Source of the DNA: Bacteroidota bacterium
GTDB taxonomy: Bacteria > Bacteroidota > Ignavibacteria > UBA10030
Assembly: GCA_021813905.1 (NCBI GenBank)
Contig: JAKAJH010000018.1
Span: forward strand, 1-51,832
Length of the DNA: 51,832 nt
Reading direction: 5' to 3'
Positions 9,357 through 15,759 of the stretch are shown piece after piece (positions within the stretch are counted from its first letter, which is position 1; each line of letters begins with the position of its first letter). The notes beneath the pieces are model-generated. The model was not told the DNA's origin. It saw nothing but the letters and a program-made list of their open reading frames with translations, and ran no database searches. Both the position numbers and the translations under genes were made by a program.

Positions 9357-11026
<1,670 letters not shown>

Positions 11027-11056
11027 TTGGAATTCATCTCACATTTGAGATATAAT
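11027..11056 (+). promoter_or_regulatory. Promoter of the YceI/porin locus
   Basis: TTGGAA (11027-11032), an 18-bp spacer and a perfect TATAAT (11051-11056). A 16-bp palindrome fills the spacer and touches the -10 box, the usual position for a repressor site. The predicted start near 11063 gives a leader of about 180 nt. Confidence 0.6.
11036..11051. promoter_or_regulatory. Palindromic operator candidate, copy 1
   Basis: ATCTCA-CATT-TGAGAT is a perfect 6-4-6 inverted repeat lying inside the promoter spacer and overlapping the -10 box by one base. Its right half is repeated at 11107-11112. The regulator is unknown. Confidence 0.6.
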
Positions 11057-11096: not shown

Positions 11097-11112
11097 ATAT
11101 CAAATTTGAGAT
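11097..11112. promoter_or_regulatory. Palindromic operator candidate, copy 2
   Basis: ATATCA-AATT-TGAGAT is the same 6-4-6 palindrome as copy 1 with one mismatch in the left arm. The two are 61 bp apart, close to six helical turns, so two dimers would bind the same DNA face. This copy lies just downstream of the predicted transcript start. Confidence 0.55.
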
Positions 11113-11215: not shown

Positions 11216-11249
11216 ATAATCAGTCAACAGAAGGAGATTCTCGTACTCA

Positions 11250-12149
11250 GGGAAAACTGCAAAACTCGCGGCGGCGATTGCGTTGTTCGGCGGATCGCTC
11301 GTAGCGCAACCGGCGCCGATGGCGCTCGCAGTAGCGACACCAAGTACGCTGACACTTCACGGAACGTCGACGCTTCACAATTTCGAGTGCACCACGACGA
11401 CCATACAGGGATCCGTGGCCATGGATGCTACCATGACGCGATTCGCTTCGGCGAGCATCATGATCGCCGTGCGCACCATCCACTCCGGCAGATCGGGTCT
11501 GGATGACAACATGGACGAATCGTTGAAGGCCGATGCGTATCCGTCCATCACGTATACCCTCACTGCCGACAGCCTGATTGCAGCGAATCAGGGCAGTGCC
11601 GCGGTGCAAACGACAGGAGCATTGACGATCGCCGGAACACAGCGACCGATAACCATGCGCGTGACGGTGATTCGGTCCGCCCTGGATGTATCCACAACTC
11701 TCAGCGCGGAGGCCGAAGCCAACTACGGCACGAATGCGGACAAGTACGGCAACCTCACGACCGCCGGCGGCCGGGTGCAGATCGGCGTGTTTCGGAAGCC
11801 GTACGACGTCGCCCTCCGGTACGCGGTCATCAGCCCCGACGGCAAATTCGTGACCGTTGACAGCAAAGGGACGCATCAGATCGTGAGCGGGTCGCCGATC
11901 CATGAGATCACGATCGGAGCGACCCATTATCTCCGCGGCGAGCACCTGAAGATCGGCGTGGACCTTCCGGTCCTGATCGGCGCTCCGGTCATGCAGGATG
12001 CGTATCGCGGTGCGTACGTGCTGACGGAGCAACCCGACCAGGCGACCTACGTCGGTCAGGCTGGCAATTCGCCGGCCCAGCGACAAACCGTCGTCGAAGC
12101 CCGCAGGAATCCGACGGATCGTTCCGCGTGGCCGCCCGCGGCATCCTGA
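11250..12149 (+). pseudogene. Chimeric remnant: YceI N-terminal part fused to porin C-terminal part
   Basis: One open frame reads as two unrelated proteins. From 11250 it encodes a signal-peptide-like stretch (AAAIALFGGSLVAQ) and then a YceI-type lipocalin-like domain (GTSTLHNFEC, DDNMDESLKADAYPSITY, GALTIAGTQRPITM), to about 11675. From about 11676 it becomes a phosphate-selective porin O/P-like C-terminal region (NYGTNADKYGNL, GGRVQIGVFRKPYDVALRY, EQPDQATYVG, RQTVVEAR), lost at about 12105 just before the expected final strand. The first usable start codon is a TTG at 11283, inside the signal peptide. A good AAGGAG (11231-11236) is followed by no in-frame ATG, GTG or TTG at normal spacing. 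Downstream the frame runs into out-of-frame YceI sequence and stops at 12149. Loss of function is likely, unless the contig is mis-assembled. Confidence 0.7.
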
Positions 12150-12391
12150 AGATCGCGGGCGTTTCGAAGGAAACCGACGTGGAATTCGAGGTTCGAGAGC
12201 TGGATGGTGGACGGTTCGACATCGAGGGTCACAAATCGCTGACGATGGGGGACTTTGGGATCGAGTCGCCCACGGCGTTCTTTGGGCTGATCCGGGCAGA
12301 CGAACGGCTGGAGGTGCACTTCTCTCTCGTTGCAGCACCGCAGACAATGTTCGGCTCCCGGCCGGAAGAGACGTTCGGGTCGGGGCCCTGA
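12101..12391 (+). pseudogene. YceI-family C-terminal fragment
   Basis: In a different frame from the porin remnant, codons from 12101 read ESDGSFRVAARGILKIAGVS and continue to DFGIESPTAFFGLIRADERL and VHFSL, the second half of a YceI (polyisoprenoid-binding-like) domain. It aligns in part with the YceI piece at 11283-11675: GILKIAGVSKETD here corresponds to GALTIAGTQRPIT there. The two pieces therefore come from different YceI paralogues rather than one interrupted gene. No start codon or ribosome-binding site precedes it; the first ATG-like codon is a GTG at 12128 within the domain. Confidence 0.7.
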
Positions 12392-12475
12392 GCATCATTC
12401 GCGCGGACGCGGGAGTTCTTCCTTCCTGGGCCGTTGATGCGGATCAGCGGGGCATGGACGTTTCCGAACGACCTC

Positions 12476-13420
12476 CTATCGTCCGTTCATCATGTCATAG
12501 ATCCGACGGGAGAGTTCCTGCATCTTTGGACGGGCCTGATCCTCGGGAATAGGAAGGAAACACGAGATCACGTACCGAACGGTCCCGTCGTCAACGATGC
12601 CGACGTCGTTTGTCCAGTACGCGAACCATCCGGTCTTGTGGTAGAACATTGCGCCCGGCGGCAACCCGGTCGAAAGCTTTGTCGTGTCCAGCTGTCGGCC
12701 GAGATACGACTCAAGCTGCATGCTCACCCAGGGATTCACCAGCGTCCGTTGCCGGATTCGCGTCATGAACTCGGCGGCATGAAGCGCACAGGTTTCCGTT
12801 CCGCGCACGGCTGCGTATGCGGAATCTTCATACTTCCGTTTCAGGAATTTCCTGGTGACCTCGCTCCCCTCCCAGTGATAACGGCGCATGAGCGTGTTGA
12901 TCCGCTCGCGCCGCGCCAGATCGATCAGGCAGTTCGCCGCCGAATTGTCACTCCGCGTGATCATCAGATCCAACAGGTATCCCACCGTCACCGTATCACC
13001 GTCCTTCAGAAGCGGACGCGGATCCCACTCAAGCTCGCGTGACCGATCCACATCATTCGGCGAATGAACGACGAACGGCGTCATCAGCGAGTACTCGCCC
13101 TCGGAAATCTGGTGGAGCACTTCGGCACCGACGTACATCTTGTACACGGACGCAGGATAGATGAAGTTTTCCCAGTGATATCCTCCCAGCCGCGGCGGAC
13201 TGGCACGCAGATCCACCACTGCCAGCGAGATCTGCTCGATCCCGTCTTCTCCCACATCGTAATCCCGGTCCAACCCGAGATCGTGCACCATCGCGGTGAT
13301 CCGTGACGTCAACGTCGAATCGACCACCAGCCCATCCGGCACGACGACGTTCTGGGCATTCGACGCGCTGAACGCGACGAGAAGGACAATGAAACAGAAG
13401 AGCAATCCGGTGCGAGTCAT
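12476..13420 (-). CDS. Exported class A beta-lactamase-like serine hydrolase
   Basis: A 314-residue protein with a signal peptide ending at about SNAQ (residues 20-23). It carries the three penicilloyl-serine-transferase motifs: S91-V-Y-K94 (SxxK), S157-D-N159 (SDN) and K262-T-G264 (KTG). The overall pattern is the beta-lactamase-2 (class A-like) family. I do not see the ExxLN omega-loop motif of true class A beta-lactamases, so a peptidoglycan D,D-peptidase or another serine hydrolase of this fold is as likely as a resistance enzyme. It is third on the minus strand after murA and the HExxH membrane protein, with a 98-nt gap, which fits a cell-envelope role. Confidence 0.8.
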   Translation of the reverse strand: MTRTGLLFCFIVLLVAFSASNAQNVVVPDGLVVDSTLTSRITAMVHDLGLDRDYDVGEDGIEQISLAVVDLRASPPRLGGYHWENFIYPASVYKMYVGAEVLHQISEGEYSLMTPFVVHSPNDVDRSRELEWDPRPLLKDGDTVTVGYLLDLMITRSDNSAANCLIDLARRERINTLMRRYHWEGSEVTRKFLKRKYEDSAYAAVRGTETCALHAAEFMTRIRQRTLVNPWVSMQLESYLGRQLDTTKLSTGLPPGAMFYHKTGWFAYWTNDVGIVDDGTVRYVISCFLPIPEDQARPKMQELSRRIYDMMNGR

Positions 13421-13518: not shown

Positions 13519-15759
13519 TCAATGAAGATGCTCAACGGACCAACGGCAACGGTCGATCCATTCGTCGATCTCCGCCCGCTGAACACCGGTTGCCAACGGA
13601 CGGGCATTTTCATACAGCGAACGGGCGCGGTCATAGTCTCCCAGTTCGAACCGGCTTCGGGCCATACGCCTGAGCCGGAGATACTCGAGCACCGGATCCT
13701 GCATCGGGCCTGCCGCCTGCAGCCACTGCAGACACTCGGAGAACTGCTCCTGTCCAAGAGCAATCTGACCCAGAAGGATGTACGCCAGCGGCGCTCGGAT
13801 CGGCAGAAGCGTCGTCATCCGAAAACTGTCGGGAATCGCGCGCGTGAGCGCTGTCCAGTATGCCGCTTGCGCATGCCCGGACGCGATGGCGGCACGGCGA
13901 AGCGCGCACGCTTCATCGTAGAACACGCTGAGATGCGTTTCCTCGACACGCCGGTACTGCTCCCGCGCGGAGTCGAGCTTCCCTTCCGCCCAGTACGCAT
14001 CCCCGAGGCGGAGCCGCAACGGCAGCAACGCGCCTCCGAGCAGCGAATCCGCGAGCATCGCCGTGTCAAAGGTGATCAGTTCCCGGTAGCGCTTCAACTC
14101 GTAGAGCGCGCGAGATTTCTGATAGACCGCATCAGGCTGACGGCTGAGGCGAAGGGAGCGGTCGGCATTCCGGAGCGCGGCCTCGTCGTCGTGCGCCGCG
14201 AGAAGCCGGCCCGTCTCAGCGGTCAGCCCCGCGATCACCCGGGCGCACTCTTTCGCAAAGATCGACGGCCGACGGAACAGGTACACCGCTTTCACGCTGT
14301 CGCCGGCCGACAGACGAACGGTATCGATCGAAGCCCGCCACGCATGCAGAAGCGAGTCGAGCGGCACTCCATACACGCGTGAGAAGTCGCCCGTCTGATA
14401 GAGTAAACGGTACCGTTCCATGCCGTATCGATCCATGAGATCGCGGCAGAACGCCCCTGCCAGTGTGTAGCTGACGCCAGGGGAGGACGTCACAAATCCC
14501 GTGACCGTGAACAGCGGAGACAGATCCGGTGCAGCCCCGGCGGCGAACACGAGAGCCGCGGCGCGATCCAACGGCTCCTGGGCGGACGCGTTCTCCACGG
14601 CCACGGCGGTCCCTTCGATCAGGCCGGGCGTGCTCGCGATACCGACCCACGGAATTCCCATCGGACGTGCCAGAACGTGCGTCATCTCGTGTTTCAGGAC
14701 CGAGGGGCTGTCACCCGCGTTGAGATGGATCTGTCCGAGCCACGGCTTTGCGATGTCCGTCCGGCTCGCGCCGATGTAGCGCGCTTTCTGCTCCGGCGAC
14801 TCGTACAGATACGTCGTAATGTGCTGTGTCGCGGGAACGCCGAGCGTACGCGTGATCAGGCCATCGTAGTATTCTTGCAGATCCGCCAGTTCCTGCGCAC
14901 GTTCCCGCGAGAGGGTCGCCGAGGGATAGACCATCTCCGCGTGCGCCGTCCGGATGTGCCCGCCCAGCCGATCACGGATGAACTCGTCCGACGAGGAGAA
15001 TCCGATCCGGTCACTCATGACGATCACCACGATGAGCATCGGCGTGAAAGCCGCAAGCAAAAGCAGGTCAATGCGCCACACCGGTCGCGCCGCGAGCGCG
15101 GAGGGCTCCGGTTCCGAGTGCCGCATCTTCCACCGGCGGATCGTGTCCCCGAGCGCCAGAAGCACGATGGTCGCCGCGAGGATCACCAGCCGATACGAGA
15201 AGAGACGGCCGGCAATGGGAATGGAGTCGTCGTAGGTGAACCCCGGGAAATAGCCGACGACCGGATTGAACGCGAAGATCTGCGGACGGAGCATCGTGAC
15301 TACGACGATCTGCGCCAGTACGGCGACGAAGGCGATCAGAAAGAGTGTCCGCCGCCAGCGATCGCTCACTGCCGCCACGACAGCGGCGATCCCGAGCGCA
15401 AACAGTCCCCCGCCCGGTGTGATCACTGCATACAGCCGCAAGCCGTCCGTGAGCGAACAGTTGCGCACGAGCAAGGCGTTCGCGAGCATCATCAGGAAGG
15501 GTACCAGCGCCAGCACCATCGTGGCGAGCGCACTCCGACCGGCAAGCGACCAGTACGCCCGGCCGTCCGCGGGGGGAGTACGCTTCCACCACGCCAGCAG
15601 GAGCAGACCGGACGAAAGCCCGAGCGGGATCGTGACCAGGGTGGAGAACTCGAATCCGAGGTAGTTCAGCAGCGGAATGCGCGTGCAGACAAGCGAGAAG
15701 AGTGCGAGCGCCAGGACACCGGTGCGGAACGGACGGTCAGGAAGGATCGACAGAGGCAT
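13519..15759 (-). CDS. Polytopic membrane protein with MA-type metallopeptidase domain and TPR-like tail
   Basis: A 746-residue protein. About seven hydrophobic helices fill residues 12-250. Then comes a domain with H357-E-M-T-H361, the HExxH zinc motif, in the context LKHEMTHVLARP that resembles peptidase_MA-like/M1-like gluzincins. A further Glu ligand is likely in the helix with LIEGTAVAVE. Residues about 500-740 are alpha-helical repeats with TPR-like spacing (LRLGDAYWAEGKLDSAREQY, FELGDYDRARSLYENA). The peptidase domain should face the periplasm. It lies 60 nt downstream of murA on the same strand and is followed by the serine hydrolase. Function and substrate are unknown; a cell-envelope protease is the best guess. 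Confidence 0.75.
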   Translation of the reverse strand: MPLSILPDRPFRTGVLALALFSLVCTRIPLLNYLGFEFSTLVTIPLGLSSGLLLLAWWKRTPPADGRAYWSLAGRSALATMVLALVPFLMMLANALLVRNCSLTDGLRLYAVITPGGGLFALGIAAVVAAVSDRWRRTLFLIAFVAVLAQIVVVTMLRPQIFAFNPVVGYFPGFTYDDSIPIAGRLFSYRLVILAATIVLLALGDTIRRWKMRHSEPEPSALAARPVWRIDLLLLAAFTPMLIVVIVMSDRIGFSSSDEFIRDRLGGHIRTAHAEMVYPSATLSRERAQELADLQEYYDGLITRTLGVPATQHITTYLYESPEQKARYIGASRTDIAKPWLGQIHLNAGDSPSVLKHEMTHVLARPMGIPWVGIASTPGLIEGTAVAVENASAQEPLDRAAALVFAAGAAPDLSPLFTVTGFVTSSPGVSYTLAGAFCRDLMDRYGMERYRLLYQTGDFSRVYGVPLDSLLHAWRASIDTVRLSAGDSVKAVYLFRRPSIFAKECARVIAGLTAETGRLLAAHDDEAALRNADRSLRLSRQPDAVYQKSRALYELKRYRELITFDTAMLADSLLGGALLPLRLRLGDAYWAEGKLDSAREQYRRVEETHLSVFYDEACALRRAAIASGHAQAAYWTALTRAIPDSFRMTTLLPIRAPLAYILLGQIALGQEQFSECLQWLQAAGPMQDPVLEYLRLRRMARSRFELGDYDRARSLYENARPLATGVQRAEIDEWIDRCRWSVEHLH

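Follow-up and report, generated by a model that had tools for sequence, protein, structure and literature searches.

A probable remnant of a decayed yceI-porin-yceI operon in an Ignavibacteria genome

Introduction

BcnA of Burkholderia is a YceI protein. Secreted lipocalin-like proteins such as BcnA are dealt with in two published reports (PMC5350466, PMC9113575). For the linkage of yceI genes to genes of a phosphate-selective porin (O/P; family PF07396), no published description was found in the literature, and among the matches listed no title concerned such a cluster. The system with which the locus described here can be compared most directly is the intact yceI-porin-yceI trio of other Ignavibacteria (JACOSY010000020.1, here genome G048, and genomes G447, G465, and G466), which has the same three families in the same order and on one strand, and to which the pieces found here align in register. 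The genes of the intact trio are near full length and have start codons, whereas the present locus lacks about 1.5 kb and a start codon. With respect to the YceI family (PF04264), the first piece at this locus (piece A) scores above the family cut-off, but both copies are truncated and the second piece (piece B) falls below it. With respect to the PF07396 porins, the middle piece is 42 to 45% identical to all five porins of the same order, but the half of the protein that bears the family signature is absent.

The window, that is, the whole stretch of DNA analysed, is contig C84 (51.8 kb), one of the 90 contigs of a 3.08-Mb genome whose stated completeness and contamination are 100% and 0.15%. 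Here, we describe the remnant on its plus strand, its counterparts in relatives, and its surroundings, and we weigh the explanations for its odd layout.

Results

Layout of the remnant. A frame is open from 11232 to 12149, with no stop codon between piece A (11250..11672) and the porin piece (11673..12101) that follows it. Frame residues 48 to 172 of piece A match PF04264 with 48.8 bits (cut-off, 23.7), covering positions 19 to 128 of the 150-position model, and piece A shares 35% identity with residues 6 to 158 of the first, 208-residue YceI of G048. It keeps a signal-peptide-like start and approximately the first 70% of the domain, and the C-terminal 50 or so residues are gone. From frame residue 148 onward (about position 11673), the frame is 43.5% identical (E = 1e-36) to residues 294 to 440 of the 448-amino-acid porin of G465, in agreement with a preliminary description of one frame running from a YceI domain into the C-terminal part of a porin. 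The same description had a second, different YceI follow in another frame, and this was also found: piece B (12104..12391; stop codon at 12389-12391), the C-terminal 40% or so of a YceI, is 43.6% identical to residues 140 to 217 of the second YceI of G048 (E = 8e-18), lies in a frame other than that of the YceI-porin fusion, and has no start codon at its head. Its score against PF04264 (19.3 bits, model positions 89 to 148 only) is under the cut-off. Pieces A and B overlap in one homologous stretch (NQGSAAVQTTGALTIAGTQR versus SDGSFRVAARGILKIAGVSK, 40% identity) and, as the preliminary description had it, are therefore not halves of one gene. Neither of them is a complete PF04264 domain with a start codon and a signal peptide.

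The ends of the alignments with relatives place the first join, which is in frame, at 11667..11676 and the second, at which the frame changes, at 12098..12107. Both joins put forward earlier thus exist, and the single positions proposed for them (11676 and 12105) are better replaced by these ranges. Identity to the intact trios is approximately 31 to 45%, which fixes each join to a range of about ten bases and leaves any microhomology there unreadable.

The porin piece comprises the last third of the protein. Its two best named relatives are from Ignavibacteria/Ignavibacteriae MAGs, in keeping with a place of this genome in that group. The last conserved position of the piece lies at about 12104, some seven residues short of the porin C terminus, and the lost end includes the aromatic terminal residue of the relatives (Phe in G048 and G011, Tyr in G465). 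An aromatic C-terminal residue matters for outer membrane assembly. Without these residues and the first two-thirds, the piece does not amount to a full-length beta barrel. One of the five porins, that of G048, was tested with PF07396, which matches it in its N-terminal part, and the same signature is present in the N-terminal part of the porin of a relative from Poribacteria. The remnant itself, from which the signature-bearing half is missing, gave no PF07396 match; nor did the profile match anywhere in the whole assembly, in which the deleted porin half was not found. A TGA codon suspected to interrupt the G465 porin sits before the start of the 448-amino-acid frame, so that porin is intact.

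The AAGGAG at 11231..11236, which resembles a ribosome-binding site and belongs to the first dead yceI, is not followed by a start codon at normal spacing. No ATG, GTG, or TTG occurs within 40 bases after it; the nearest such triplet, all frames considered, starts 41 bases past it, and the nearest in-frame candidate, TTG at 11283, starts 46 bases past it, inside the signal-peptide-like stretch. In G447, by comparison, GAAGGAG is followed by 8 bases and then ATG. The earlier observation of a good AAGGAG with no properly spaced start was therefore correct. From TTG 11283, the fusion frame runs to 12149 and comprises 288 codons without a stop. On the minus strand, a 383-codon open frame (11247-12398) lies antisense to the whole remnant; most likely it mirrors the GC-rich coding frames opposite and is not a gene.

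Intact trios in relatives. A search by porin alignment in 98 genomes of the order gave matches in 6: the genome of the window, with the C-terminal part only, and G011, G048, G447, G465, and G466, each with a near-complete porin. In four of these (G048, G447, G465, and G466), the genes stand in the order yceI-porin-yceI on one strand, so the intact cluster that the preliminary description suggested looking for does occur in relatives. G011, which is of the same family as the window's genome, has all three genes, with both yceI genes beside a divergent porin gene. No porin copy was found in the same-genus genome G001 (55% complete).

In all four trios, piece A matched the first yceI with a higher score than the second (90.5 versus 52.8 bits in G048, 80.5 versus 57.4 in G447, 68.6 versus 43.5 in G465, and 62.8 versus 47.8 in G466), and in all four the reverse was true of piece B (second versus first, 68.9 versus 48.5 bits in G048, 60.1 versus 53.5 in G447, 68.6 versus 58.5 in G465, and 66.6 versus 60.5 in G466). 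These piece-specific best scores indicate that the pieces are remnants of the three positional counterparts. The remnant measures 1142 bases, versus 2637 to 2994 bases for the intact trios when genes are taken from their first start codon. By hand arithmetic from the alignment ends, about 1.04 to 1.11 kb is missing at the first join and about 0.45 to 0.49 kb at the second in comparison with G048 and G465. The locus thus combines intact homologues in the same order in relatives with disabling lesions of its own (truncation, frame change, and loss of a start codon).

Linkage of yceI and porin genes across phyla. Sixteen distinct porin loci were compared, the genome of the window being excluded: five in the order, eight from a draw of 395 in the phylum, and three in records from Poribacteria, Elusimicrobia, and Myxococcaceae. 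At least one yceI adjoins the porin gene, or is one small frame away from it, in 15 of these 16 loci, which come from several phyla; the Myxococcaceae locus, with a partial porin match, has no yceI. The linked arrangements were yceI-porin-yceI, yceI-yceI-porin, yceI-porin, and porin-yceI (loci L018, L019, L027, L028, L045 to L051, and L053, and the short loci L032 to L037). Neighbours of the intact clusters include c-type cytochromes (G048 and G447) and a Crp/Fnr-type regulator (G048). In the Poribacteria record, the neighbours are a molybdopterin oxidoreductase and an Fe-S subunit, the nearest models to which are those of the type II DMSO reductase family, with scores far below the cut-offs. 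From these neighbours one might guess at a role of the trio in envelope handling linked to respiration. The linkage, mildly interesting in itself, predicts a shared envelope function for the yceI genes and this porin subfamily.

Genomic place and upstream region. The enolase gene (eno; 9357..10661, minus strand) and the gene for a TPR-repeat protein (13519..15759, minus strand), its usual neighbour in the family, served for the comparison of gene order. We compared 28 other genomes of the family with an eno locus, leaving out the window's own locus, a second eno copy of G005 (L086), and a duplicate (L057). The TPR gene is upstream of eno, on the same strand and within 1.5 kb, in 23 of the 28 and not so in 5; among the 23 is G001, with an enolase identity of 91%. 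In the window, the remnant and an open class A beta-lactamase-like gene (12476..13420, minus strand; PF13354, 123.9 bits) stand between the two. Because the TPR gene and eno adjoin in G001 and in most family genomes, the 2.8-kb stretch was most likely acquired at, or relocated to, this site once the lineage had diverged from that of G001; the alternative is a loss in G001. G001 carries, on another contig, a relative of the beta-lactamase-like gene (63% identity) that adjoins not eno but what, from its translation, we take to be an anmK-like gene; an old association of the beta-lactamase-like gene with eno was therefore rejected. Among the open frames between 10690 and 13500, inspection by eye revealed no mobile-element gene.

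Upstream of the dead yceI are two 16-base palindromes (ATCTCA-N4-TGAGAT) at 11036-11051 and, with one mismatch, at 11097-11112, 61 bases apart. They were rejected as a conserved operator: two matches were reached in 60 of 100 shuffles of the window, which puts their number within chance, and an exact match was present in 7 of 86 loci, all 7 of which were the window's own locus. At gathering scores, no Rfam match to an RNA element was found in the window.

Discussion

We consider it probable (roughly 85%), on the strength of sequence comparison, that the remnant is a dead yceI-porin-yceI operon that arose by two deletions and the loss of a start codon. The collapse of a former cluster by two deletions, as suggested beforehand, gains support from the intact trios and from the piece-specific scores in relatives. 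The ancestor would have carried an intact trio here, encoding two secreted YceI lipocalin-like proteins and a phosphate-selective (O/P) outer membrane porin. A deletion of about 1.05 kb would have left only the last third of the porin gene and joined it to the first yceI, in frame by a one-in-three chance, and a second deletion, of about 0.47 kb, would have removed the end of the porin gene and the first 60% or so of the second yceI, with a shift of frame. As a third lesion, the first gene would have lost its start codon. All three lesions (start loss, first deletion, and second deletion with frame change) lie within one 1.1-kb stretch.

In codon third-position GC, the three pieces (0.69, 0.81, and 0.76) equal or come close to 16 genes of the window (0.74 to 0.83), and in each piece the coding frame scores best of the six, which indicates long adaptation of these genes to this genome. 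The pieces contain no stop codon, although one would arise from any of 94 single substitutions, and the decay should therefore be younger than about 0.1 substitutions per site, if neutral change is assumed to be uniform. In so young a pseudogene an open frame is to be expected, and it is no evidence for a working chimera.

The alternative that survives best is an assembly artefact, likewise raised beforehand, in which the assembler collapsed an intact trio by mistake or put together sequence from different strains. The source does look like a metagenome assembly (90 contigs, with MAGs as related records), and the incomplete same-genus genome shows no porin of this kind. However, the sequences that meet at each join are nonhomologous, the 14-base words around the joins occur nowhere else in the window, the 1301-base region in question has no match in the genome other than itself, and a collapse would not remove a start codon. 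Within the binned assembly, neither a repeat at a join nor the missing parts elsewhere were found: the missing porin half is absent, and the only other YceI is an intact, full-length protein of 193 residues on contig C45 (L055:5830-6411), among other neighbours. (By the same token, the genome has not lost the YceI family.) Mis-assembly is thus the less likely explanation, and on its own an improbable one, and we infer that the lesions are in the organism rather than in the assembly.

Far less probable still is a working chimera, in which the in-frame YceI-porin fusion, translated from TTG 11283 or from an unusual start, would be exported as a new small envelope protein. That the fusion is a newborn expressed protein, a secreted lipocalin-like piece with a partial barrel caught soon after the two deletions, seems equally hard to credit. 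Its 288 codons without a stop and the coding-like codon use on both sides of the first join are what such a protein would have, but recent coding ancestry accounts for the open frame. The AAGGAG has no normally spaced start after it, the distant TTG would cut into the signal-peptide-like stretch, the YceI fold is cut, the porin part is deprived of its terminal residues with the aromatic end residue, and piece B is in another frame without a start of its own. We reject a single yceI interrupted by insertion of a porin gene, both for the homologous stretch in which pieces A and B overlap and because, in the intact trio, the two pieces are each closer to a different yceI.

On the reading as a decayed operon, presumably no functional protein is made from the remnant, and annotation of the odd frame as a fusion protein would be a mistake. 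As a pseudogene the remnant is ordinary and matters little otherwise. A yceI has shrunk elsewhere as well: the second yceI of a yceI-yceI-porin cluster in genome G108 (L053:4245-4694) has likewise lost internal stretches, its frame still being open, but the neighbouring yceI and porin genes, unlike those of the present locus, are near full length. The shrunken gene of G108 has a frame of 149 residues, versus about 200 residues in four genus mates (G063, G067, G115, and G209).
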